A model generated the notes under the pieces. It saw only the letters and a program-made list of their open reading frames with translations. It did no database searches and was not told where the DNA came from. A stretch of DNA of 64,000 bases from Herbidospora galbida. GTDB taxonomy: Bacteria; Actinomycetota; Actinomycetes; Streptosporangiales; Streptosporangiaceae. The position numbers and the translations under genes are program-made. The first letter of the stretch is position 1. Every line of letters begins with the position of its first letter. Shown one piece after another: positions 1 to 15,559 of this stretch. The DNA lies in NCBI RefSeq assembly GCF_005233835.1, contig NZ_SZQA01000037.1, positions 1 through 64,000 on the forward strand, given 5' to 3'.

Positions 1-124
1 CTTGAGATGAGGTCTCCCACCTGTGAAGGGTAAGGCCCCCGGTAGACGACCGGGTTGATAGGCCGGGAGTGGAAGCGCGGTAACGTGTGGAGCTGACCGG
101 TACTAATAGGCCGAGGACTTGACC
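1..124 (+). rRNA. rrl: 23S ribosomal RNA, 3' end (partial)
   Basis: The first ~124 bases match the conserved 3' end of bacterial 23S rRNA, including the block GACCGGTACTAATAGGCCGA just before the terminus. The 5' part lies outside the window. A 5S gene follows about 50 bases downstream in the same direction, the usual rRNA operon order. The exact 3' end is approximate. Confidence 0.95.
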
Positions 125-176
125 ATAAATGCTCGCGTCGACTATGCAACTCTCAGGCTGCAAACAGCCTAGTAGA

Positions 177-295
177 GTTACGGCGGTTATGGCGGAGGGG
201 AAACACCCGGTTACATTCCGAACCCGGAAGTTAAGCCCTCCAGCGCCGATGGTACTGCACCGGGGACGGTGTGGGAGAGTAGGACACCGCCGGAC
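177..295 (+). rRNA. rrf: 5S ribosomal RNA
   Basis: The ~118-base sequence has typical actinobacterial 5S blocks: an initial GTTACGGCGG, the internal CCGAACCCGGAAGTTAAGCC, and a 3' CACCGCCGGAC that can pair with the 5' end. It lies ~50 bases after the 23S end and just before a strong terminator, so it closes the rRNA operon. Ends are set by the terminal helix and may be off by one or two bases. Confidence 0.95.
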
Positions 296-304
296 AATTT
301 TCAA

Positions 305-336
305 CGAAAGCCCGACCAGTATTGGTCGGGCTTTCG
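305..336 (+). terminator. rRNA operon terminator
   Basis: A perfect 14-bp inverted repeat (arms 305-318 and 323-336, loop GTAT) begins ten bases after the 5S gene. The stem is GC rich at its core, its 3' arm ends in CTTTCG, and TCATTT follows. Position and structure fit intrinsic termination of the rRNA operon. Confidence 0.85.
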
Positions 337-375
337 TCATTTCCGGGCAGGTCCGCATCACCTGCGAAGACTTGC

Positions 376-415
376 TAGGCTGGCGTAGCCGGGCCACCCT
401 GACGAACGGGTGGCC
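376..415 (+). promoter_or_regulatory. Possible promoter and leader hairpin for the repeat protein
   Basis: An extended -10-like element (TGC then TAGGCT, 376-381) is followed by an 8-bp hairpin, GGCCACCC (392-399) with GGGTGGCC (408-415). Both lie between the rRNA terminator and the GTG at 522. No convincing -35 is visible, so this is a weak prediction. Confidence 0.3.
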
Positions 416-521
416 TTCGTCGCGTCAGAGGAATACGCGACCCCTAACAGTGCCCATACCGCGCACCCGCCTCGCAGCCAGAGACGTAGATCCGTACGCG
501 GTGGAGCAACAGAGGATCAAA

Positions 522-3035
522 GTGAACAGAGAAGACGGGCGTGACGGCGCGGGCCGTGGCGATGAGCGAAACGACCGACCGGCCGGCGGCCGCGACGGCG
601 ACAGGTATGGCCGCGGCGATGCCGGCGGCAGAGGTGGCCAGGTAGACGGCCAGAACGACCGGGGCAACCGCCCCTTCCGCGCGAACAGCCGCGGTGGTTA
701 CCGCGACCGCGACGAGGTCCGCGGCGGCGGCTTCGGCGGCCGCTACGGTGTGCGCGACTCCCGCCCCCAGCGGTCGTCCGGCGACCGCGGCGACCGCGGT
801 GACCGCCCCCAGCGTTCTTACGGCGACCGTGACGACCGGCGCGGCTTCCAGCCCCGCGACGACCGCCCCCAGCGCCCCTTCAACGACCGCGGCGACCGTG
901 GCGACCGCCCGCAGCGGCCTTTCAACGACCGAGGCGATCGTCCCCAGCGGCCCTTCAGCGACCGTGGTGACCGTGGTGACCGCCCCCAGCGGTCTTTCAA
1001 CGACCGGGGTGACCGCCCGCAGCGGTCCTTCGGTGACCGTGGCGACCGGCCGCAGCGTTCGTTCGGTGACCGTGGTGACCGCCCTCAGCGGCCTTACCAG
1101 GACCGCGGCGACCGTCCCCAGCGGCCTTTCAACGACCGTGGTGACCGTGGTGACCGGCCCCAGCGGTCTTTCAACGACCGGGGTGACCGCCCGCAGCGGT
1201 CCTTCGGTGACCGTGGCGACCGTCCCCAGCGGCCTTTCCAGGACCGTGGTGACCGGCCGCAGCGTTCCTTCCAGGACCGTGGTGACAGGCCGCAGCGCCC
1301 GTATGGCGACCGGGGTGACCGCCCGCAGCGATCGTTCGGTGACCGTGGCGACCGCCCTCAGCGGCCTTTCCAGGATCGTGGTGACCGCCCTCAGCGGCCG
1401 TTCCAGGATCGTGGTGACCGTCCCCAGAGGTCCTTCAACGACCGTGGCGACCGGCCCCAGCGTCCCTACCAGGACCGCGACGACCGTCGTGGCTTCCAGG
1501 ACCGGGGCGACCGTCCGCAGCGTTCCTTCCAGGATCGCGGTGACCGGCCCCAGCGGTCCTACGGCGATCGTGACGACCGTCAGTCCCGGCCCTTCCAGAA
1601 CCGTGACGACCGTCCGCAGCGCTCCTACGGAGACCGCGACGACCGTCCGCAGCGGCCGTTCCAGAACCGGGATGACCGGCCTCAGCGGTCGTTCCAGGAT
1701 CGCGGTGACCGTCCGCAGAGGTCCTATGGCGACCGTGACGAGCGGCCTTCCTACGGTGACCGTGATCGCTTCCGGGGTGGGGACCGTCCGCAGCGGTCGT
1801 ACGGGAACCGGGATGACCGGTCCCAGCGGTCCTTCCAGGATCGTGGCGACCGGCCGCAGCGGCCCTTCCAGGACCGTGACCGCCGGCCTTCCGGCGACCG
1901 CGACGACCGTCCGCGCCGCAGCTTCGACGACCGTGGTGACCGTCCGCAGCGGTCCTTCGATGACGACCGGGGCGGCAGCCGTACCCGCTATGGGCGTGAA
2001 GACGAGCCGCAGCGCGAGCGCGAGGTGCTGCCCGAGCTCGAGGCGGACATCACCGCCGAGGAGCTCGACCGCGAGGCCCGTGGCGAGCTGAAGTCGCTGC
2101 CGGGCGATCTGGCCGAGCTGGTGGCCAAGCACCTGGTCGCGGCGACGCGCGCCCTGGCGGCGGAGGACGCCGAGAAGGCCTACGAGCACGCCAAGGTCGC
2201 GCGCCGGTTCGCCGGACGCATCGGTGTGGTCCGGGAGGCGGTGGGCATCGCCGCCTACCACGCGGGACAGTACGCCGAGGCGCTCAGCGACCTGCGGGCC
2301 GCCCGCCGGATGACCGGTTCGGAGGCGTTCCTCCCCGTCATGGCCGACTGCGAGCGCGGCATGGGCCGGCCGGAGCGCGCGCTCGACCTGGTGAAGTCCA
2401 AGGAGGCCGAGAAGCTCGACCGGTCCGGCAAGATCGAACTGGCCATCGTCGAGTCGGGCGCCCGGCGCGACCTGGGCCAGCTCGACGCGGCCGTCGTGAC
2501 CCTCCAGCGCCTGCCCGAACTCCGCGACCCGCAGCCCCGTGACTGGTCGGCCCGCCTGGCCTTCGCCTACGCCGACGCCCTCGCGGCCGCCGGCCACGCG
2601 AGCGCCGCCGCCGACTGGTTCGGCCGCGCCGCCTCCTTCGACGAGGACGGCGAGACCGACGCGGCCGAGCGCTACGCGGAGTTGACCGGCGCGGTGATCG
2701 AGGACCTGGAAGAGGACGACGACTTCGAGGACGACTTCGCCGACGACGTCTCGGACGAGGACGTTCTCGACGACGAGGACTCCGGGGACTCCGAGGACGA
2801 AGCTCCGGAGACCGCCTCCACGGAGGAGGACTCCGACGTGGACGACTCGGAGGTAGACGACGCGGACGCCTCCGACGACGACTTCGACGACGAGGACCTC
2901 GACGAGAAGCCGGCCCCGGCCCCGGTGAAGGCCGAGGCCGACAAGCCCGCCGAGGAGGCCGGGTTCGGTCCGGCGTTCATCGAACCCGACTACGGCGACG
3001 TCCTCGACGGACCGGCGGACAAGCCGGAGGCCTGA
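522..3035 (+). CDS. RPQR tandem-repeat protein with TPR-like domain and acidic tail
   Basis: The predicted protein has 837 residues in three regions. Residues ~1-80 are Gly/Arg/Asp rich. Residues ~81-485 hold about 29 units of roughly ten residues, typified by DRGDRPQRPF, with Ser/Pro and Phe/Tyr alternating in the last two positions. Residues ~500-726 form a helical TPR-like domain (Ala/Leu-rich helix pairs such as AYEHAKVARRFAGR). Residues ~727-800 are strongly acidic (Asp/Glu/Ser). I chose GTG 522 because AGAGGA lies at 511-516; the reading frame stays open upstream through the 5S gene but that part is not credible coding. The TPR part resembles proteins encoded near tlyA in other actinobacteria. 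The function is unknown; RGG-like disorder plus its place beside the rRNA operon make RNA or ribosome association plausible, but this is inference. It ends back to back with the convergent MBL gene. Confidence 0.8.
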   Translation: MNREDGRDGAGRGDERNDRPAGGRDGDRYGRGDAGGRGGQVDGQNDRGNRPFRANSRGGYRDRDEVRGGGFGGRYGVRDSRPQRSSGDRGDRGDRPQRSYGDRDDRRGFQPRDDRPQRPFNDRGDRGDRPQRPFNDRGDRPQRPFSDRGDRGDRPQRSFNDRGDRPQRSFGDRGDRPQRSFGDRGDRPQRPYQDRGDRPQRPFNDRGDRGDRPQRSFNDRGDRPQRSFGDRGDRPQRPFQDRGDRPQRSFQDRGDRPQRPYGDRGDRPQRSFGDRGDRPQRPFQDRGDRPQRPFQDRGDRPQRSFNDRGDRPQRPYQDRDDRRGFQDRGDRPQRSFQDRGDRPQRSYGDRDDRQSRPFQNRDDRPQRSYGDRDDRPQRPFQNRDDRPQRSFQDRGDRPQRSYGDRDERPSYGDRDRFRGGDRPQRSYGNRDDRSQRSFQDRGDRPQRPFQDRDRRPSGDRDDRPRRSFDDRGDRPQRSFDDDRGGSRTRYGREDEPQREREVLPELEADITAEELDREARGELKSLPGDLAELVAKHLVAATRALAAEDAEKAYEHAKVARRFAGRIGVVREAVGIAAYHAGQYAEALSDLRAARRMTGSEAFLPVMADCERGMGRPERALDLVKSKEAEKLDRSGKIELAIVESGARRDLGQLDAAVVTLQRLPELRDPQPRDWSARLAFAYADALAAAGHASAAADWFGRAASFDEDGETDAAERYAELTGAVIEDLEEDDDFEDDFADDVSDEDVLDDEDSGDSEDEAPETASTEEDSDVDDSEVDDADASDDDFDDEDLDEKPAPAPVKAEADKPAEEAGFGPAFIEPDYGDVLDGPADKPEA
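760..1980 (+). repeat. Coding tandem repeat, ~30-bp period
   Basis: About 40 degenerate units of 30 bp encode the decapeptide related to DRGDRPQRPF. Many neighbouring units share long identical stretches (for example CCGCAGCGGTCCTTC-type blocks), and some units are shortened or fused as DRGDRGDR. The array lies wholly within the gene starting at 522. Copy number could change by slippage or unequal recombination. Confidence 0.9.
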
Positions 3036-3962
3036 TCAGGCCTCCGGGCGGTCGAGCCAGTGCATGATCCCCGCCAGGTTCGGCTCGGTGCCGCTGAGCA
3101 TCTCGATGTGCTCAGCGGCCTTGTCGCCGGGCGCGGGCCGGGCATAACGGTCACGGGTGCGCTGGTCGACCATCGCCACGGCGTGGTCGAGGTCGAGCTG
3201 CTCGCCCTTGGCCTGCTTGGCCAGATCCACCCAGATCAGTAGTTCCTCGGCGGATCGCTCCAGAATCGAGCCGACCTCGTCGACCGGGCCGTAGTGGCTG
3301 AACAGCAGCCGCTGCGGCCCGAGCGCTTCGAAGAGGGCGATCGACGCCAGAGCGGTCTCGAGGTCGAAATCCGGCGGCGGCGTGGACGGCCGGACGTCCC
3401 CGGTGTCCGGGATGTACACCCCGGCGGCATCCCCGACGTACAGGTCACCCGTCAGCGAGTCGACCAGCCCGACGTGATGCTTCGCGTGTCCGGGCGAATA
3501 GTGGCTGGTCAGCTGCCTCCCGTTGCCCAGATCGATGGCCCCGGTGTCGCCGAGCGCCCGGATCCGGGCCGCGTCGGTCGGTTTCAGCATCCCGAAGAGG
3601 GTGTCGAGCCGGTCACCCCAGACCATCCGGGCACTGGACATGAGCCGGGACGGATCGGCCAGATGCCGGGCCCCTTTCTCGTGTACGACGATCTCCGCCG
3701 CCGGGAACATGGCGGAGATGTCGCCCACGCCACCCGCGTGGTCGAGATGGATGTGCGTCACGACGACCGTGGCGAGATCGCCGGCCCCGACACCGAGCGA
3801 GGCCAACGCGTCGCGGACGACCGGCGCCGAGGTCGACGTACCCGTCTCCACCAGGCATGGTCGATCACCGAGAATCGCATATCCGGCAGTGATTCCGGCA
3901 TATCCGGCCAGCCTCGTGTCGATTTCGTACACGTCTCCGCCGAGCGGGGTCACGTTTTCCAC
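3036..3962 (-). CDS. MBL-fold metallo-hydrolase
   Basis: The 308-residue protein belongs to the metallo-beta-lactamase fold superfamily. The metal-binding motif HIHLDH is at residues 70-75, followed by GHAKHH near residue 158 and SHYGP near 223, which supply the further histidines. The motif is of the hydrolase/glyoxalase II-like type. No signal peptide is seen, so it should be cytoplasmic. The substrate cannot be told from sequence. The stop codon abuts that of the convergent repeat-protein gene with no gap. The ATG start at 3962 has a purine-rich GAGGTGAGC just upstream. Confidence 0.85.
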   Translation of the reverse strand: MENVTPLGGDVYEIDTRLAGYAGITAGYAILGDRPCLVETGTSTSAPVVRDALASLGVGAGDLATVVVTHIHLDHAGGVGDISAMFPAAEIVVHEKGARHLADPSRLMSSARMVWGDRLDTLFGMLKPTDAARIRALGDTGAIDLGNGRQLTSHYSPGHAKHHVGLVDSLTGDLYVGDAAGVYIPDTGDVRPSTPPPDFDLETALASIALFEALGPQRLLFSHYGPVDEVGSILERSAEELLIWVDLAKQAKGEQLDLDHAVAMVDQRTRDRYARPAPGDKAAEHIEMLSGTEPNLAGIMHWLDRPEA

Positions 3963-4062: not shown

Positions 4063-4440
4063 ATGTCAGTTGATCAAATGGTGAGCGCTCCTGCCCACCA
4101 CAACGAGGTCGTTCTCGTCGGCCGCCTGTCCAAGGGCCCGGAGGCCCGCCTCCTGCCCAGCGGCACCGAGCTGATTCAGTGGCGCCTCGCCGTCCGCCGC
4201 CCCACCCCCGACAACGAGAAGGGCCGCGCCGACGCCATCGAGTGCGTGACCTACGACCCGATCGTCCGCGAGTCCCTGACGGGCCTGACCGTCGACGACG
4301 TGGTCGAGGTCCAGGGCGCCCTCCGCCGCCGCTGGTGGCGCGGCGGCAGCGCCTTCGAAGTCGAGGCCCGCTCGGTACGCCTGGCGCACCGCGCCGGGAC
4401 GGGTGATACCGAGGCCAGGCCGGAGGAACCTTCGGAGTGA
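4063..4440 (+). CDS. Single-stranded DNA-binding protein, short form
   Basis: The 125-residue protein contains one OB-fold of the SSB family: an N-terminal NEVVLVGRLSKGPEAR strand region, then ELIQWRLAVRRP and a C-terminal VVEVQGALRRRWW segment. It lacks the long Gly/Pro linker and acidic DDDIPF-like tip of the main replicative SSB, so it looks like a secondary SSB, as in SsbB-type paralogues of actinomycetes. The start ATG 4063 follows GAAGGGG (4051-4057) at 5-base spacing; another in-frame ATG lies at 4078. The gene stands at the left edge of the IS-scarred zone. Confidence 0.8.
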   Translation: MSVDQMVSAPAHHNEVVLVGRLSKGPEARLLPSGTELIQWRLAVRRPTPDNEKGRADAIECVTYDPIVRESLTGLTVDDVVEVQGALRRRWWRGGSAFEVEARSVRLAHRAGTGDTEARPEEPSE

Positions 4441-4543: not shown

Positions 4544-5110
4544 TCAACCGACAGGCGGTCCCAGCGAGTCACGGGTATGGGCCAGGCGGGCGATGATGAC
4601 CGCGGCTCGGTAGCGGATGGCGGGCTTGTTGTAGCGGGTGGTGATTCCGTGGAGGCGTTTGAGCTGGTTGAAGCAGTGTTTGACGATGTTGCGCCGCTTG
4701 TGGCGCTCCCGGTCGATCCCGCAGCGGCGCCATCCGCGCCGGGCCGAGTGCGGCCGGCTGTCCACCCGCTCGGGAAGGGTGTGAGAGATCCGGCGCGGCC
4801 GCAGGTGGGTGCGGTCGATGCCGGTGGAGTATCCCTTGCCGGCCGCCAGGTGAGCGGGACGGCTGTGTGGTCGTCCCGGTCCGGTCCAGGCGATGGAGAT
4901 GGCCTCCACCACGGTGATCAGGCGGGTGCGGTCGTTGATGTTGCCGCCGGTGATGACGAAAGGCCGGCGGCAGGCCGCGTCCTTCGCACGCCAGGTGGAT
5001 CTTTGTGGTCAGGCCGCCCGGGGATCGTCCGAGCACGTGGTCGTCGGGTTCGGGTCCTTGTTGCGGAGTGAGCCGGCCTGAGCCCGGATCGTGCCGTTAT
5101 CACCGGAAGA
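4544..5110 (-). pseudogene. IS5-family transposase remnant (C-terminal part)
   Basis: On the minus strand, conceptual segments in different frames match the DDE transposase of IS5-like elements common in actinomycetes: GRSPGGLTTKIHLACEGRG, then ITGGNINDRTRLITVVEAIS, then a C-terminal RERHKRRNIV with FNQLKRLHGITTRYNKPA. At least two frameshifts separate these blocks, and the N-terminal third is absent from this strand. A ~355-bp part of it is repeated inverted at 7443-7799. It is non-functional. Confidence 0.75.
4582..4936 (-). repeat. Left arm of IS-derived inverted repeat
   Basis: The reverse complement of this segment aligns nearly base for base with 7443-7799, with only a few substitutions and a one- or two-base length difference seen by eye. 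The similarity stops at GCCCGCCTGG at one end and AACGACCGCACCC at the other. Both copies derive from the transposase C-terminal half. Confidence 0.85.
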
Positions 5111-7442: not shown

Positions 7443-7799
7443 GAACGACCGCACCCGCCTGATCACCGTGGTGGAGGCCATCTCCATCGCCCGGACCGGA
7501 CCGGGACGACCACACAGCCGTCCCGCTCACCTGGCGGCCGGCAAGGGATACTCCACCGGCATCGACCGCACCCACCTGCGGCCGCGCCGGATCTCTCACA
7601 CCCTTCCCGAGCGGGTGGACCAGCCGGTCGCACTCGGCCCGGCGCGGATGGCGCCGCTGCGGGATCGACCGGGAGCGCCACAAGCGGCGCAACATCGTCG
7701 AACGCCGCTTCAACCAGCTCAAACGCCTCCGCGGAATCACCACCCGCTACGACAAGCCCGCCATCCACTACCGAGCCGCGGTCACCATCGCCCGCCTGG
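7443..7799 (+). repeat. Right arm of IS-derived inverted repeat
   Basis: This segment is the inverted partner of 4582-4936. The two arms enclose about 2.5 kb holding the N-terminal transposase fragment, the ADP-ribosylglycohydrolase remnant, the lipoprotein gene and the two unrecognised fragments. Confidence 0.85.
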
Positions 7800-9438: not shown

Positions 9439-9861
9439 GTGACACGGCATGATCAGAATGGAGTGGGCGATACGTCCGGCAGCCCGTCGGGCGACGTATA
9501 CGAGTGGTACCAGCGTGGCATGAAGCTCCTCCAGGAGGGCAGCCCCGCCGCCGCCGCGGCGCTCCTCGAGCGCGCGGCCGACGCCGAGCCCGACTCCCGG
9601 AGCATCCGCGAGGGCCTGGCTCGGGCCCAGTTCAACTCGCGCCGGTACGAGGACGCGGCCACCAGCTTCCGCTGGATCGTGGACGCGAACCCGGCCGAAG
9701 ACTACGCCTACTACGGTCTCGGTATGGCACTTTGGCGAACCGGTGACATCGAAGGCGCCCAGGAACCCCTGGCCGTCGCCGTTGCGATGCGTCCCGACGA
9801 ACGAAACTACGTCTCCGCCCTCACCCAGATCCGGGCGACCCTGCGCGCGAGGCGCGCGTGA
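9439..9861 (+). CDS. Small tetratricopeptide-repeat protein
   Basis: The 140-residue protein is made of three to four TPR-like helix pairs (WYQRGMKLLQEGSPAAAAALLERA, residues ~19-42, split here at natural helix ends; then YEDAATSFRWIV and YAYYGLGMALWRTGD). It should be a cytoplasmic scaffold with no enzymatic site. The GTG start follows AGGAGG (9426-9431) at 7-base spacing. Its stop overlaps the GTG of the next gene, so the two are translationally coupled. M. tuberculosis has Rv1691 in the equivalent place before its phosphatase gene Rv1692. Confidence 0.8.
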   Translation: MTRHDQNGVGDTSGSPSGDVYEWYQRGMKLLQEGSPAAAAALLERAADAEPDSRSIREGLARAQFNSRRYEDAATSFRWIVDANPAEDYAYYGLGMALWRTGDIEGAQEPLAVAVAMRPDERNYVSALTQIRATLRARRA

Positions 9862-10847
9862 ATCACCTGCTCGACGCGTACGACACCTTGCTCCTCGACC
9901 TCGACGGTGTGGTCTACCTGGGACGGCACGCGGTCCCGGGCGCACCGGAGGCGCTGGCCCTGGCCGGGGAGCGGGGCGTACGCCTGGCTTACGTCACCAA
10001 CAACGCCTCCCGCACCCCGGCGGCGATCGCCGAACACCTGACCCACCTGGGGGTGCCCGCGTCGCCCGACGACGTGGTGACCTCCGCGCAGGCCGCCGCC
10101 CGGCTCGTGGCCGAACACGTACCGGCCGGGTCTCCCGTGCTCGTCGTCGGCGGCATGGGGCTGCGGTCGGCGCTGCGCGCACACGGGCTGCGGCCGGTGA
10201 CGACCGCGCTGGAGGGGCCGGCGGCGGTCGTCCAGGGCATCTGGGACGGCATCTCCTACGGGCTGCTCAGCGAGGGGACGCTGGCGGTGCGGGCCGGGGC
10301 CTGGTTCGTGGCGGCCAACCACGACAGCACGATGCCGACCGACCGGGGCGAGATGCCCGGGAACGGGTCGATGCTGAAGGTGATCGAGTCGGCGACCGGG
10401 GTGAGCCCGGTGGTGGCGGGGAAGCCGGAGCCTCCGCTGCATCGGGAGTCGATGATCCGTACCGAGGCGAAGCGGCCCTTGATCGTGGGCGATCGGCTCG
10501 ACACCGACATCGAAGGCGCCAACCGGGCCGGGGTCGACAGTCTGCTGGTGCTGACCGGGGTGGCCACGCCGCTCGACCTGCTGACGGCAGAGCCGGTTCA
10601 TCGGCCCACCCACGTGGCGGACGACCTTTCCGGGCTGCATCAGCCTGCTGCCTCGGCCCGTGCCATCGACGATGGGTGGGAGTGCGGCGGGTGGGTGGCT
10701 TCCTGGGATGGCGGGCGGTTGCGGCTGACCGGCGGCGGGGAGTCGATCGACGCGTTGCGGGCGGCTTGCGCTGCTACGTGGGCCGGCGTGGGGGATGGGC
10801 GAGCGGAGGAGGATGCCGTCAAGCCGGCGCTTCGGGCCTTGGGCTAG
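9858..10847 (+). CDS. HAD-IIA phosphatase, likely glycerol-3-phosphate phosphatase
   Basis: The 329-residue protein has the HAD motifs LLDLDGVVYLG (nucleophile Asp near residue 14), TNNASRTP, a C2-type cap, KPEPPLH with the conserved Lys, and GDRLDTDIEGANRAG with the acidic metal site. It is of the NagD/PGP type. The syntenic M. tuberculosis Rv1692 is a glycerol-3-phosphate phosphatase that recycles glycerol from phospholipid breakdown, so the same role is likely here. A C-terminal extension of ~70 residues follows the HAD core. GTG start overlaps the TPR gene stop by 4 bases. Confidence 0.8.
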   Translation: MNHLLDAYDTLLLDLDGVVYLGRHAVPGAPEALALAGERGVRLAYVTNNASRTPAAIAEHLTHLGVPASPDDVVTSAQAAARLVAEHVPAGSPVLVVGGMGLRSALRAHGLRPVTTALEGPAAVVQGIWDGISYGLLSEGTLAVRAGAWFVAANHDSTMPTDRGEMPGNGSMLKVIESATGVSPVVAGKPEPPLHRESMIRTEAKRPLIVGDRLDTDIEGANRAGVDSLLVLTGVATPLDLLTAEPVHRPTHVADDLSGLHQPAASARAIDDGWECGGWVASWDGGRLRLTGGGESIDALRAACAATWAGVGDGRAEEDAVKPALRALG

Positions 10848-13844: not shown

Positions 13845-14657
13845 TTGAGTCAGCGCCGCCGTCTCGACAGCGAGCTGGTGCGGCGCAAGCTGGCCCGCTC
13901 GCGGGAGCAGGCCGCCCAGCTCATCGAGGCGGGCCGGGTCACCATCGGTGGCCAGCCCGCTTCCAAAGCGGCCACGCAGGTCGACACCGCCGCCCCGATC
14001 GTGGTCGCCGAGGCCCCCGACGGGCCCGACTACGTCTCGCGGGGGGCGCACAAGCTCATCGGCGCGCTCGACGTCTTCACCGACCTCGACGTCACGGGGC
14101 GGCGCTGCCTCGACGCGGGCGCGTCGACCGGCGGGTTCACCGACGTGCTGCTGCGGCGGGGGGCCGCCCACGTGCTGGCGGTCGACGTCGGCTACGGGCA
14201 GCTGGCCTGGTCGCTGCGGACCGACGAGCGGGTCACCGTGATGGAGCGGGTGAACGTCCGCGACCTCACCCCCGAGATGGTCGGGGAGCCGCCCACGCTC
14301 GTCGTCGGCGACCTGTCGTTCATCTCGCTGCGGCTGGTGCTGCCCGCGCTGACCGCGTGCCTGGCCGAGGGCGGAGAGCTGGTCATGCTGGTCAAGCCGC
14401 AGTTCGAGGTGGGGAAGGAACGCGTGGGCGCCGGAGGGGTCGTCCGCGACCCGGAACTGCGGGCCGAGGCGGTGCGCGACGCCGCGGCGGCGGCGCGGCA
14501 GCTGGGGCTCACGGTCAAGGGCGTGACGGCCAGTCCGCTGCCGGGACCTTCGGGGAATGTGGAATACCTGATCCGGCTCGGGAAGGGGCCTGGTCACGAG
14601 GCGGTCGGCGATGTGGCCGCCGCCGTCGCGCGTGCCGTCGAGGAGGGGCCCCGATGA
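13845..14657 (+). CDS. tlyA: TlyA family rRNA 2'-O-methyltransferase
   Basis: The 270-residue protein has an N-terminal S4 RNA-binding domain (RLDSELVRRKLARSREQA, residues ~5-60) and a FtsJ-like Rossmann methyltransferase domain with the SAM-binding LDAGASTGGFTD (near residue 88) and the conserved LVVGDLSFIS. TlyA methylates C1409 of 16S rRNA and, in many species, C1920 of 23S rRNA; this affects sensitivity to capreomycin. Start is TTG (13845); its stop overlaps the NAD kinase ATG by four bases. Length is typical. Confidence 0.93.
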   Translation: MSQRRRLDSELVRRKLARSREQAAQLIEAGRVTIGGQPASKAATQVDTAAPIVVAEAPDGPDYVSRGAHKLIGALDVFTDLDVTGRRCLDAGASTGGFTDVLLRRGAAHVLAVDVGYGQLAWSLRTDERVTVMERVNVRDLTPEMVGEPPTLVVGDLSFISLRLVLPALTACLAEGGELVMLVKPQFEVGKERVGAGGVVRDPELRAEAVRDAAAAARQLGLTVKGVTASPLPGPSGNVEYLIRLGKGPGHEAVGDVAAAVARAVEEGPR

Positions 14658-15559
14658 GCGACAGCCGATCGGTCCTGATCACCACCCACACCGGGCGTGA
14701 CGCCGCGGTCGAGAGCGCCCGGCTGGTCATCGACCGGCTGCTCAAGGAGGGGCTGACGGTCCGGGTTCTGGCCGACGAGGCCGAAGAGGTGGCCCGGCTG
14801 GGCGTCGAGGTCGTCCCGGCCGACGAGCGGGCCGCCTTCGGCGCGGAGATCATCATCGTCCTGGGGGGCGACGGAACGCTCCTGCGGGCCGCCGAGATCT
14901 CCCGGCCCACGGGCGTGCCGCTGCTGGGCGTCAACCTCGGGCACGTCGGCTTCCTGGCCGAGGCCGAGGTGGAAGACCTGCACGTCGTCGTCGACCGGGT
15001 CGTCGACGGGCGGTTCGAGGTCGAGGAGCGCATGACCCTCGACGTGACCGTGCGCAACGGCACCGTGCTGGCGCGCACGTGGGCGCTCAACGAGGCGTCG
15101 GTGGAGAAGCGCGACCGCATGCTGGAGGTCGTGGCCGAGATCGACGGGCATCCGCTGTCCCGCTGGGGCTGCGACGGCGTCATCTGCGCCACGTCGACCG
15201 GGTCGACCGCCTACGCGTTCTCCGCCGGAGGGCCCGTCGTGTGGCCTCAGGTCGAGGCGCTGCTGGTGGTGCCCAACAGCGCCCACGCGCTGTTCGCGCG
15301 GCCTCTCGTGGTGGCCCCGACCAGCTCGATCGCGATCGAGCTGCTCTCGACGACACACCCGGGTGAGCTGTGGTGCGACGGCCGCCGCCGCTTCGATCTG
15401 CCGCCGGGCGCGCGCGTGGAGGTCCGCAAGGGCACCCATCCGGTACGCCTCGCGCGCATGCTCGGCGTCGACTCCACGGGCGTCCCGTTCACCGACCGGT
15501 TGGTCGCCAAGTTCGGCCTTCCGGTAGAGGGATGGCGCGGCCGCGCCAGGCCCGCCTGA
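14654..15559 (+). CDS. nadK: NAD kinase
   Basis: The 301-residue protein phosphorylates NAD to NADP. It has the GGDGT motif at residues 71-75, GVNLGHVGFLAE, and the NAD-binding TSTGSTAYAFSAGGP with the conserved Ser/Thr-Gly cluster. Coupling to tlyA by an ATGA overlap and to recN downstream gives the common actinobacterial tlyA-nadK-recN order. ATG 14654 has GGAGGGGCC just upstream. Confidence 0.95.
   Translation: MSDSRSVLITTHTGRDAAVESARLVIDRLLKEGLTVRVLADEAEEVARLGVEVVPADERAAFGAEIIIVLGGDGTLLRAAEISRPTGVPLLGVNLGHVGFLAEAEVEDLHVVVDRVVDGRFEVEERMTLDVTVRNGTVLARTWALNEASVEKRDRMLEVVAEIDGHPLSRWGCDGVICATSTGSTAYAFSAGGPVVWPQVEALLVVPNSAHALFARPLVVAPTSSIAIELLSTTHPGELWCDGRRRFDLPPGARVEVRKGTHPVRLARMLGVDSTGVPFTDRLVAKFGLPVEGWRGRARPA

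Follow-up and report, generated by a model that had tools for sequence, protein, structure and literature searches.

An Arg-rich repeat, TPR and acidic-tail protein encoded behind an rRNA operon in Herbidospora galbida, and its actinobacterial relatives

The window analyzed here, a 64,000-nucleotide stretch of the Herbidospora galbida (Streptosporangiaceae) genome, opens with the end of an rRNA operon, and the gene that follows (Table 1) encodes a protein composed of an Arg- and aromatic-rich repeat region, a TPR domain and an acidic tail. The protein belongs to a widespread family whose gene is often the first conserved one past the rRNA operon. Its TPR domain was identified in 38 of 41 related genomes, the window's own included (G028, G032, and G034 gave no match), and a profile search for it was positive in 53 of 119 phylum-sampled genomes, again including its own, among which G118 and other weak profile matches (E of 1e-11 to 1e-13) may not represent orthologs. 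Our literature search, for which subscription papers were mostly beyond reach, found no paper describing the rrn-linked TPR family, and in the literature searched the family is without a described function. We tentatively propose, at somewhat less than an even chance, that the protein is a scaffold that works on rRNA or on ribosomes under assembly, near RNA polymerase.

Table 1. Features of the rRNA operon end, the TPR gene and its conserved downstream neighbors in the window.
Feature	Position	Strand	Details
23S rRNA 3' end	1..126	+	Rfam RF02541
5S rRNA gene	179..295	+	Rfam RF00001, 103 bits
Probable terminator of the rRNA operon, a perfect 15-bp inverted repeat downstream of 5S	304..337	+	
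Conserved element: CTTGCTAGGCTGG (extended -10 like), inverted repeat and TTCGTCGCGT	371..425	+	63 Streptosporangiaceae sequences aligned
Inverted repeat GGCCACCC-N8-GGGTGGCC within the element	392..415	+	
Arg-rich/TPR/acidic-tail protein gene	522..3035	+	837 aa plus stop, GTG start, open frame
N-terminal low-complexity region with DRGDRPQR[PS][FY] units	522..2018	+	499 aa
TPR domain	2019..2708	+	230 aa; alignment of 31 sequences
Acidic tail	2709..3032	+	residues 730-837, 108 aa, net -47, 47% D+E
C-terminal motif PAFIEPDYGDVLD	2970..3008	+	includes FIEP
HAD-like gene	9858..10640	+	tblastn, 51% identical to gene after TPR in L145
tlyA, S4 and FtsJ-like methyltransferase	13845..14654	+	
NAD-kinase-like gene	14654..15544	+	tblastn with gene after tlyA in L145

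Architecture of the protein and its family

An earlier, sequence-only reading of this DNA had described one gene with about 29 near-regular N-terminal repeat units, a TPR-like domain and a polyacidic tail, and that layout was confirmed on the plus strand, including the repeat number and the strongly negative end. The reading frame remains open upstream to position 129, within the rRNA, so that taking GTG 522 as the start involves a choice, one supported by the conservation among Streptosporangiaceae of the first residues (VNREDGRDG or VNSDNGRDG) and of the bases immediately 5' of the GTG. The gene had a single match in its own genome and is thus present in a single copy. An antisense frame of 717 codons opposite the repeats (444-2597, minus strand) was not taken as a gene; we attribute it to the codon pattern of the repeats.

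RPQR occurs 29 times and DRGDRPQR 23 times in the N-terminal half, with 11 residues as the commonest spacing, and 27 of the 40 spacings between its 41 aromatic residues are exactly 11. A comparison of repeat number, which the sequence-only reading had suggested, gave 28-30 RPQR in each of seven Herbidospora sequences. When 24 units were aligned, most of their DNA differences fell on third codon positions (399, 266, and 1331 differences at positions 1, 2, and 3, respectively; 1050 synonymous versus 476 non-synonymous differing codons in 3036 compared), which argues that the repeat peptide is kept. At 27% Arg and 19% Asp, with a net charge of +32 over 499 residues, the region is a weakly positive polyampholyte; the protein as a whole sums to a net charge of -28. 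The earlier description of positive, RG-rich disorder is corrected in two respects: the positive charge is weak, and the region is not of the RGG-box kind. The protein has five RGG triplets with no three within 12 residues, for which reason the RGG-box class of RNA-binding proteins was dropped, and clustered RGG triplets were found in just one of 63 sequences checked.

Across the Streptosporangiaceae, the N-terminal regions span 285-641 residues and are net positive in all 63 sequences with a recognized start, a motif that is absent in 18 of the 81 loci. The 51 of these 63 that passed the TPR-start pattern contain 6921 Arg versus 30 Lys in their N-terminal regions, with 7.4% aromatic and 0.4% aliphatic residues, while in the TPR domains of the same proteins Lys makes up 13% of the basic residues. 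The commonest 8-mer of the region varies by genus (DRGDRPQR, DRGPRREG, RDDRGPRR, RGERRPFN, and others), so that its chemistry is conserved more than its sequence. Among 51 wider relatives with a readable N-terminus (12 rows open at the 5' end were excluded), the tail is net positive in 49; it reaches at least 100 residues in 28, measures 13-45 in several and is a single residue in L151, so that the range for the family as a whole is 1 to 641 residues. These lengths depend on starts picked by rule, at least one of which (L124) was placed too far in, and short Arg-rich tails call for caution because translated GC-rich DNA is Arg-rich in itself.

The assignment of the central domain is by itself weak, since the profile search proposed for it matched TPR_12 at E values (0.0044 with the domain alone, 0.041 with the full-length protein) that are both under the Pfam cut-off. 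It is through the relatives that membership of the TPR superfamily is established, as 26 of the 31 aligned sequences match TPR_12 at E of 0.01 or lower (best 2.5e-07). Seventy columns of this alignment are kept in at least 90% of the sequences, and 11 of the 70 are Arg. The closest named records are from six Herbidospora species, whose TPR domains are 93-100% identical to that of the window, and in the other aligned relatives identity is 49-83%. Searches of Pfam and NCBIfam matched no dedicated family, found no helicase or nuclease domain, and otherwise returned solely weak TPR-type or chance matches. A homolog in the PDB was also sought by sequence and dropped, as the search gave weak TPR hits alone.

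All 81 Streptosporangiaceae loci have a negative C-terminal tail and all 81 sequences have FIEP within their final 70 residues. Outside that set, FIEP was seen among the distant C-termini inspected in L118 and L119 alone, both of the same taxonomic family as the window. Scored as at least 20 residues with a net charge of -5 or lower, an acidic tail occurs in 20 of the 50 relatives whose C-terminus is complete and is not part of the family core. Long repeats and acidic tails are features of part of the family only. The core layout, a basic tail and a TPR domain, looks old; Streptosporangiaceae carry the long repeat tail and the long acidic end.

The rRNA operon and the surrounding gene order

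The start codon lies 227 bases past the 5S gene and 185 past the arms of the terminator-like hairpin, as had been claimed for the distance to the terminator; a scan for T-run terminators did not pick out this inverted repeat. A 5S gene on the same strand less than 5 kb upstream of the TPR domain was found in 59 of 88 genomes from 23 families (28 of 38 related and 31 of 50 phylum-sampled genomes). The remaining 29 comprise 17 assigned to a contig edge no more than 4 kb away and 12 others, where edges were called on both strands and on contigs of known size in the first set and for plus-strand genes alone in the second. Such edges are what repeated rRNA operons usually cause in assemblies. One of the nine second-set genomes classed in this way, G060, was wrongly so, as a tyrS-like gene directly precedes its TPR gene (L153). 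The 12 others include near misses: a 5S fragment 1.4 kb upstream at a contig end (G077, L148), a contig that ends 379 bases upstream (G071), and a 5S fragment 7 kb upstream (G013). In G055 the distance is 12 kb. In G014, G041, G046, G075, G078, G118, G133, and G134 the TPR gene is without 5S linkage in the data; in G118, G134, G046, and G075 it stands apart from rrn. G062 has six 5S genes, and its TPR gene is behind exactly one of them. At another locus (L140), two 5S genes of the same strand, both preceded by a 23S end, are separated by 8 kb, and the TPR gene follows the second.

The order mpg-tyrS-rrn-TPR-HAD-tlyA-nadK was found, in part or whole, in Streptosporangiaceae, in relatives that we call mycobacterium-like from their gene order, and in more distant genomes. 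The tlyA neighborhood expected from other actinobacteria was thus recovered at those loci and in the window itself, where 5S, TPR, HAD-like, tlyA, and nadK-like genes follow one another with other genes interspersed (Table 1); the names HAD and nadK for the window genes are ones we assume from the mycobacterial and the known gene order, respectively. Because mpg and tyrS are kept across the rRNA operon, the rrn linkage belongs to an old gene order, which weakens the case for a tie of its own between rrn and the TPR gene and explains part of the linkage. In G040, rrn, TPR, and HAD form one group, and some 0.84 Mb separates them from mpg-tyrS and tlyA-nadK, which stay near each other, an arrangement that favors a tie between rrn and the TPR gene. 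Conversely, G134, G046, G075, and G060 retain the TPR gene with no rrn separating it from a tyrS-like gene and show that such a tie is not needed.

Several local arrangements were also observed. At three loci from a single family (f24), L151, L152, and L153, a tyrS-like gene immediately precedes the TPR gene with no rrn in between, and the N-terminal tail has 1-14 residues; the tyrS-like matches at these loci and at L156, L160, and L161 have 26-31% identity and may be another type of synthetase. Three more distant loci (L123, L124, and L129) have NUDIX and MgsA/RarA-type ATPase genes directly after the TPR gene, replacing the usual order. In the window, a gene of the metallo-beta-lactamase fold (3036-3962, minus strand) is convergent with the TPR gene and was matched in 79 of 80 Streptosporangiaceae loci (L031-L110), the exception being the short L089; a small gene resembling SSB (4063-4437, plus strand) was matched in 73 of the same 80. 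A 356-base repeat occurs at 4582-4936 and 7444-7799, between the TPR gene and tlyA, in opposite orientation and at 97% identity; it looks like transposase debris, but a single frame alone gave a match to a DDE transposase, and that one sub-threshold (E 0.0074).

A conserved element ahead of the start

Between the 5S terminator and the gene, positions 371-425 are the most conserved stretch ahead of the start region in the 63 aligned Streptosporangiaceae sequences. This is probably the gene's own promoter together with a leader hairpin or leader start, or else an operator, which could serve some regulator. The strict short pattern of the element is present in 54 of 81 loci. Of the 27 misses, 13 have at most 1003 bases before the TPR domain, and the other 14, with more than 1003, have a copy that departs from the 16-base pattern at no more than 3 positions, scored without a shuffle control. 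The right arm lies within a narrow range of the start (95-208 bases, 51 loci) and within a wide one of the 5S gene (111 to 2603 bases, 41 loci), and the element thus goes with the gene. In 41 genomes the exact pattern had 15 matches, distributed over 13 genomes and including one in the window's own, compared with two for a reversed control pattern (one each in G006 and G018). It stands immediately before the TPR gene in 12 of the 41 and nowhere else in 11 of these; G009 has one extra copy elsewhere, and both copies in G023 are away from the TPR gene.

A promoter of a type shared with rRNA was considered and rejected: judged by pattern matches alone, G018 and G021 have TTGAC-type matches before 16S, and the element is an extended -10 with no conserved -35, so shared regulation with rRNA is not supported. 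A known Rfam leader was likewise dropped, its matches being sub-threshold. The stem is nearly invariant in 45 distinct sequences and yields no RNA covariation, as a consequence of which an RNA hairpin and a DNA operator cannot be told apart, and the 153-nt leader folds little better than its shuffles (z -1.26).

Possible functions and related systems

If the protein is a scaffold on rRNA or in ribosome assembly, its Arg/aromatic tail would bind structured RNA via many weak contacts and might drive condensation, the TPR domain would, via its conserved arginines, hold a protein partner or a phosphate-rich ligand, and the acidic tail with its FIEP end would either vie with RNA for binding to the Arg tail or to the groove of the TPR domain or dock a partner, thereby tuning release. 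Such an RNA or ribosome direction is supported by the position of the gene behind rRNA operons in most genomes with the domain, by N-terminal tails that are almost always net basic with an extreme bias to Arg over Lys and to aromatics, and by the mycobacterial relative, which was recovered in an RNA-polymerase pull-down whose most enriched cellular component was "ribosome" and showed no DNA association (PMC7092591). Against it stand the weak net positive charge and high Asp content of the N-terminal tail and the negative charge of the whole protein, as well as the rRNA neighborhood, which may be inherited gene order, and, as regards the pull-down, the fact that ribosomal proteins are common contaminants (PMC10433963). 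The papers found contain no report of RNA binding, ribosome binding or a phenotype for the family.

The main alternative, which we consider somewhat unlikely, is that the protein serves RNA/protein condensates in general as a scaffold, or acts as a stress chaperone, without being specially linked to rRNA, and that its gene has inherited its position beside rrn. A sticker-and-spacer composition that is independent of the repeat unit would suit such a protein; the conserved order in many loci indicates that the linkage is not specific to the TPR gene, and the gene survives without rrn in G134 and the three f24 genomes. Against this reading, rrn and TPR (with HAD) have kept together in G040 although the other genes of the block lie at a distance, and a basic tail is kept even at 13-45 residues, which we judge too short for droplets alone. 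That the repeats expanded neutrally or merely to confer solubility, with the TPR domain alone of importance, seems very unlikely, for although the repeat unit changes between genera and the tail varies from a single residue to several hundred, its composition is tightly kept, its units differ mostly by synonymous changes, and the RPQR number is nearly constant within Herbidospora.

Two further readings draw on the mycobacterial relative. An anti-RNA-polymerase formaldehyde pull-down from M. smegmatis retained 275 proteins, and from its high-confidence list the authors selected the TPR protein MSMEG_3754 (Rv1691) for further work; no DNA came down with its tagged form, and they considered RNA association possible (PMC7092591). 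These data would fit a factor on the transcription side that binds RNA polymerase or nascent RNA and aids rRNA transcription, by elongation or antitermination, yet "ribosome" was the most enriched cellular component of the pull-down (PMC7092591), making proximity unspecific, and with domain searches that gave weak TPR-type or chance matches alone we regard this role as quite unlikely. MSMEG_3754 is also in a ClpC1 interactome, as would be expected of an adaptor or substrate whose TPR domain engages this protease or a different chaperone, but that list is broad, with about 13% translation proteins, and its authors warn of contaminants (PMC10433963), leaving the idea with only a slight probability.

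A scaffold on rRNA, if confirmed, would add an actinobacterial step to the making of ribosomes, and the natural range of tails, from about 13 to more than 600 residues, would provide a ready system for the study of Arg/aromatic disorder in bacteria. We offer as a long shot a reading in which the gene stays beside the rRNA operon for the sake of a protein that would be translated at the rrn locus and act on the spot, its Arg/aromatic tail capturing nascent pre-rRNA and seeding a nucleolus-like assembly center and its acidic tail setting release.

Among known systems, MamA and designed TPR proteins share the TPR fold and gave weak PDB sequence hits to the window domain (E 0.003 to 0.16), with no functional link. 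RG/RGG low-complexity RNA-binding proteins form a comparison class that the window protein resembles in its Arg-rich low-complexity repeats and regularly spaced aromatics and from which it differs in having no RGG box, the composition of an Asp-rich polyampholyte, and a TPR domain that follows. Actinobacterial Rho and RNase E carry Arg/Asp-rich disordered insertions, a similar case of Arg-rich disorder on RNA-handling proteins, whereas no helicase or nuclease domain was found in the window protein.

The nearest system is Rv1691/MSMEG_3754, annotated as a TPR-repeat-containing protein. A homologous TPR domain, compared among the aligned relatives, and the order of the neighboring genes place the window protein in the same actinobacterial rrn-linked TPR family; for MSMEG_3754 the orthology is based on gene order and printed locus tags. 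MSMEG_3756 and MSMEG_3757 are the 23S and 16S genes, two and three tags away from MSMEG_3754 (PMC3779251), from which we infer that MSMEG_3755 is the 5S gene; mycobacterial rrnB sits behind tyrS (PMC10218544); and the lprJ-recN operon is described as including both Rv1691 and tlyA (PMC3072309). The mycobacterium-like L114, L139, and L145 differ from the window protein in their N-terminal tails of 40-58 residues and lack of an acidic tail, but they share its TPR family, and the order tyrS, rrn, TPR, HAD, tlyA is found in L114 and L139 and is kept without rrn in L145.
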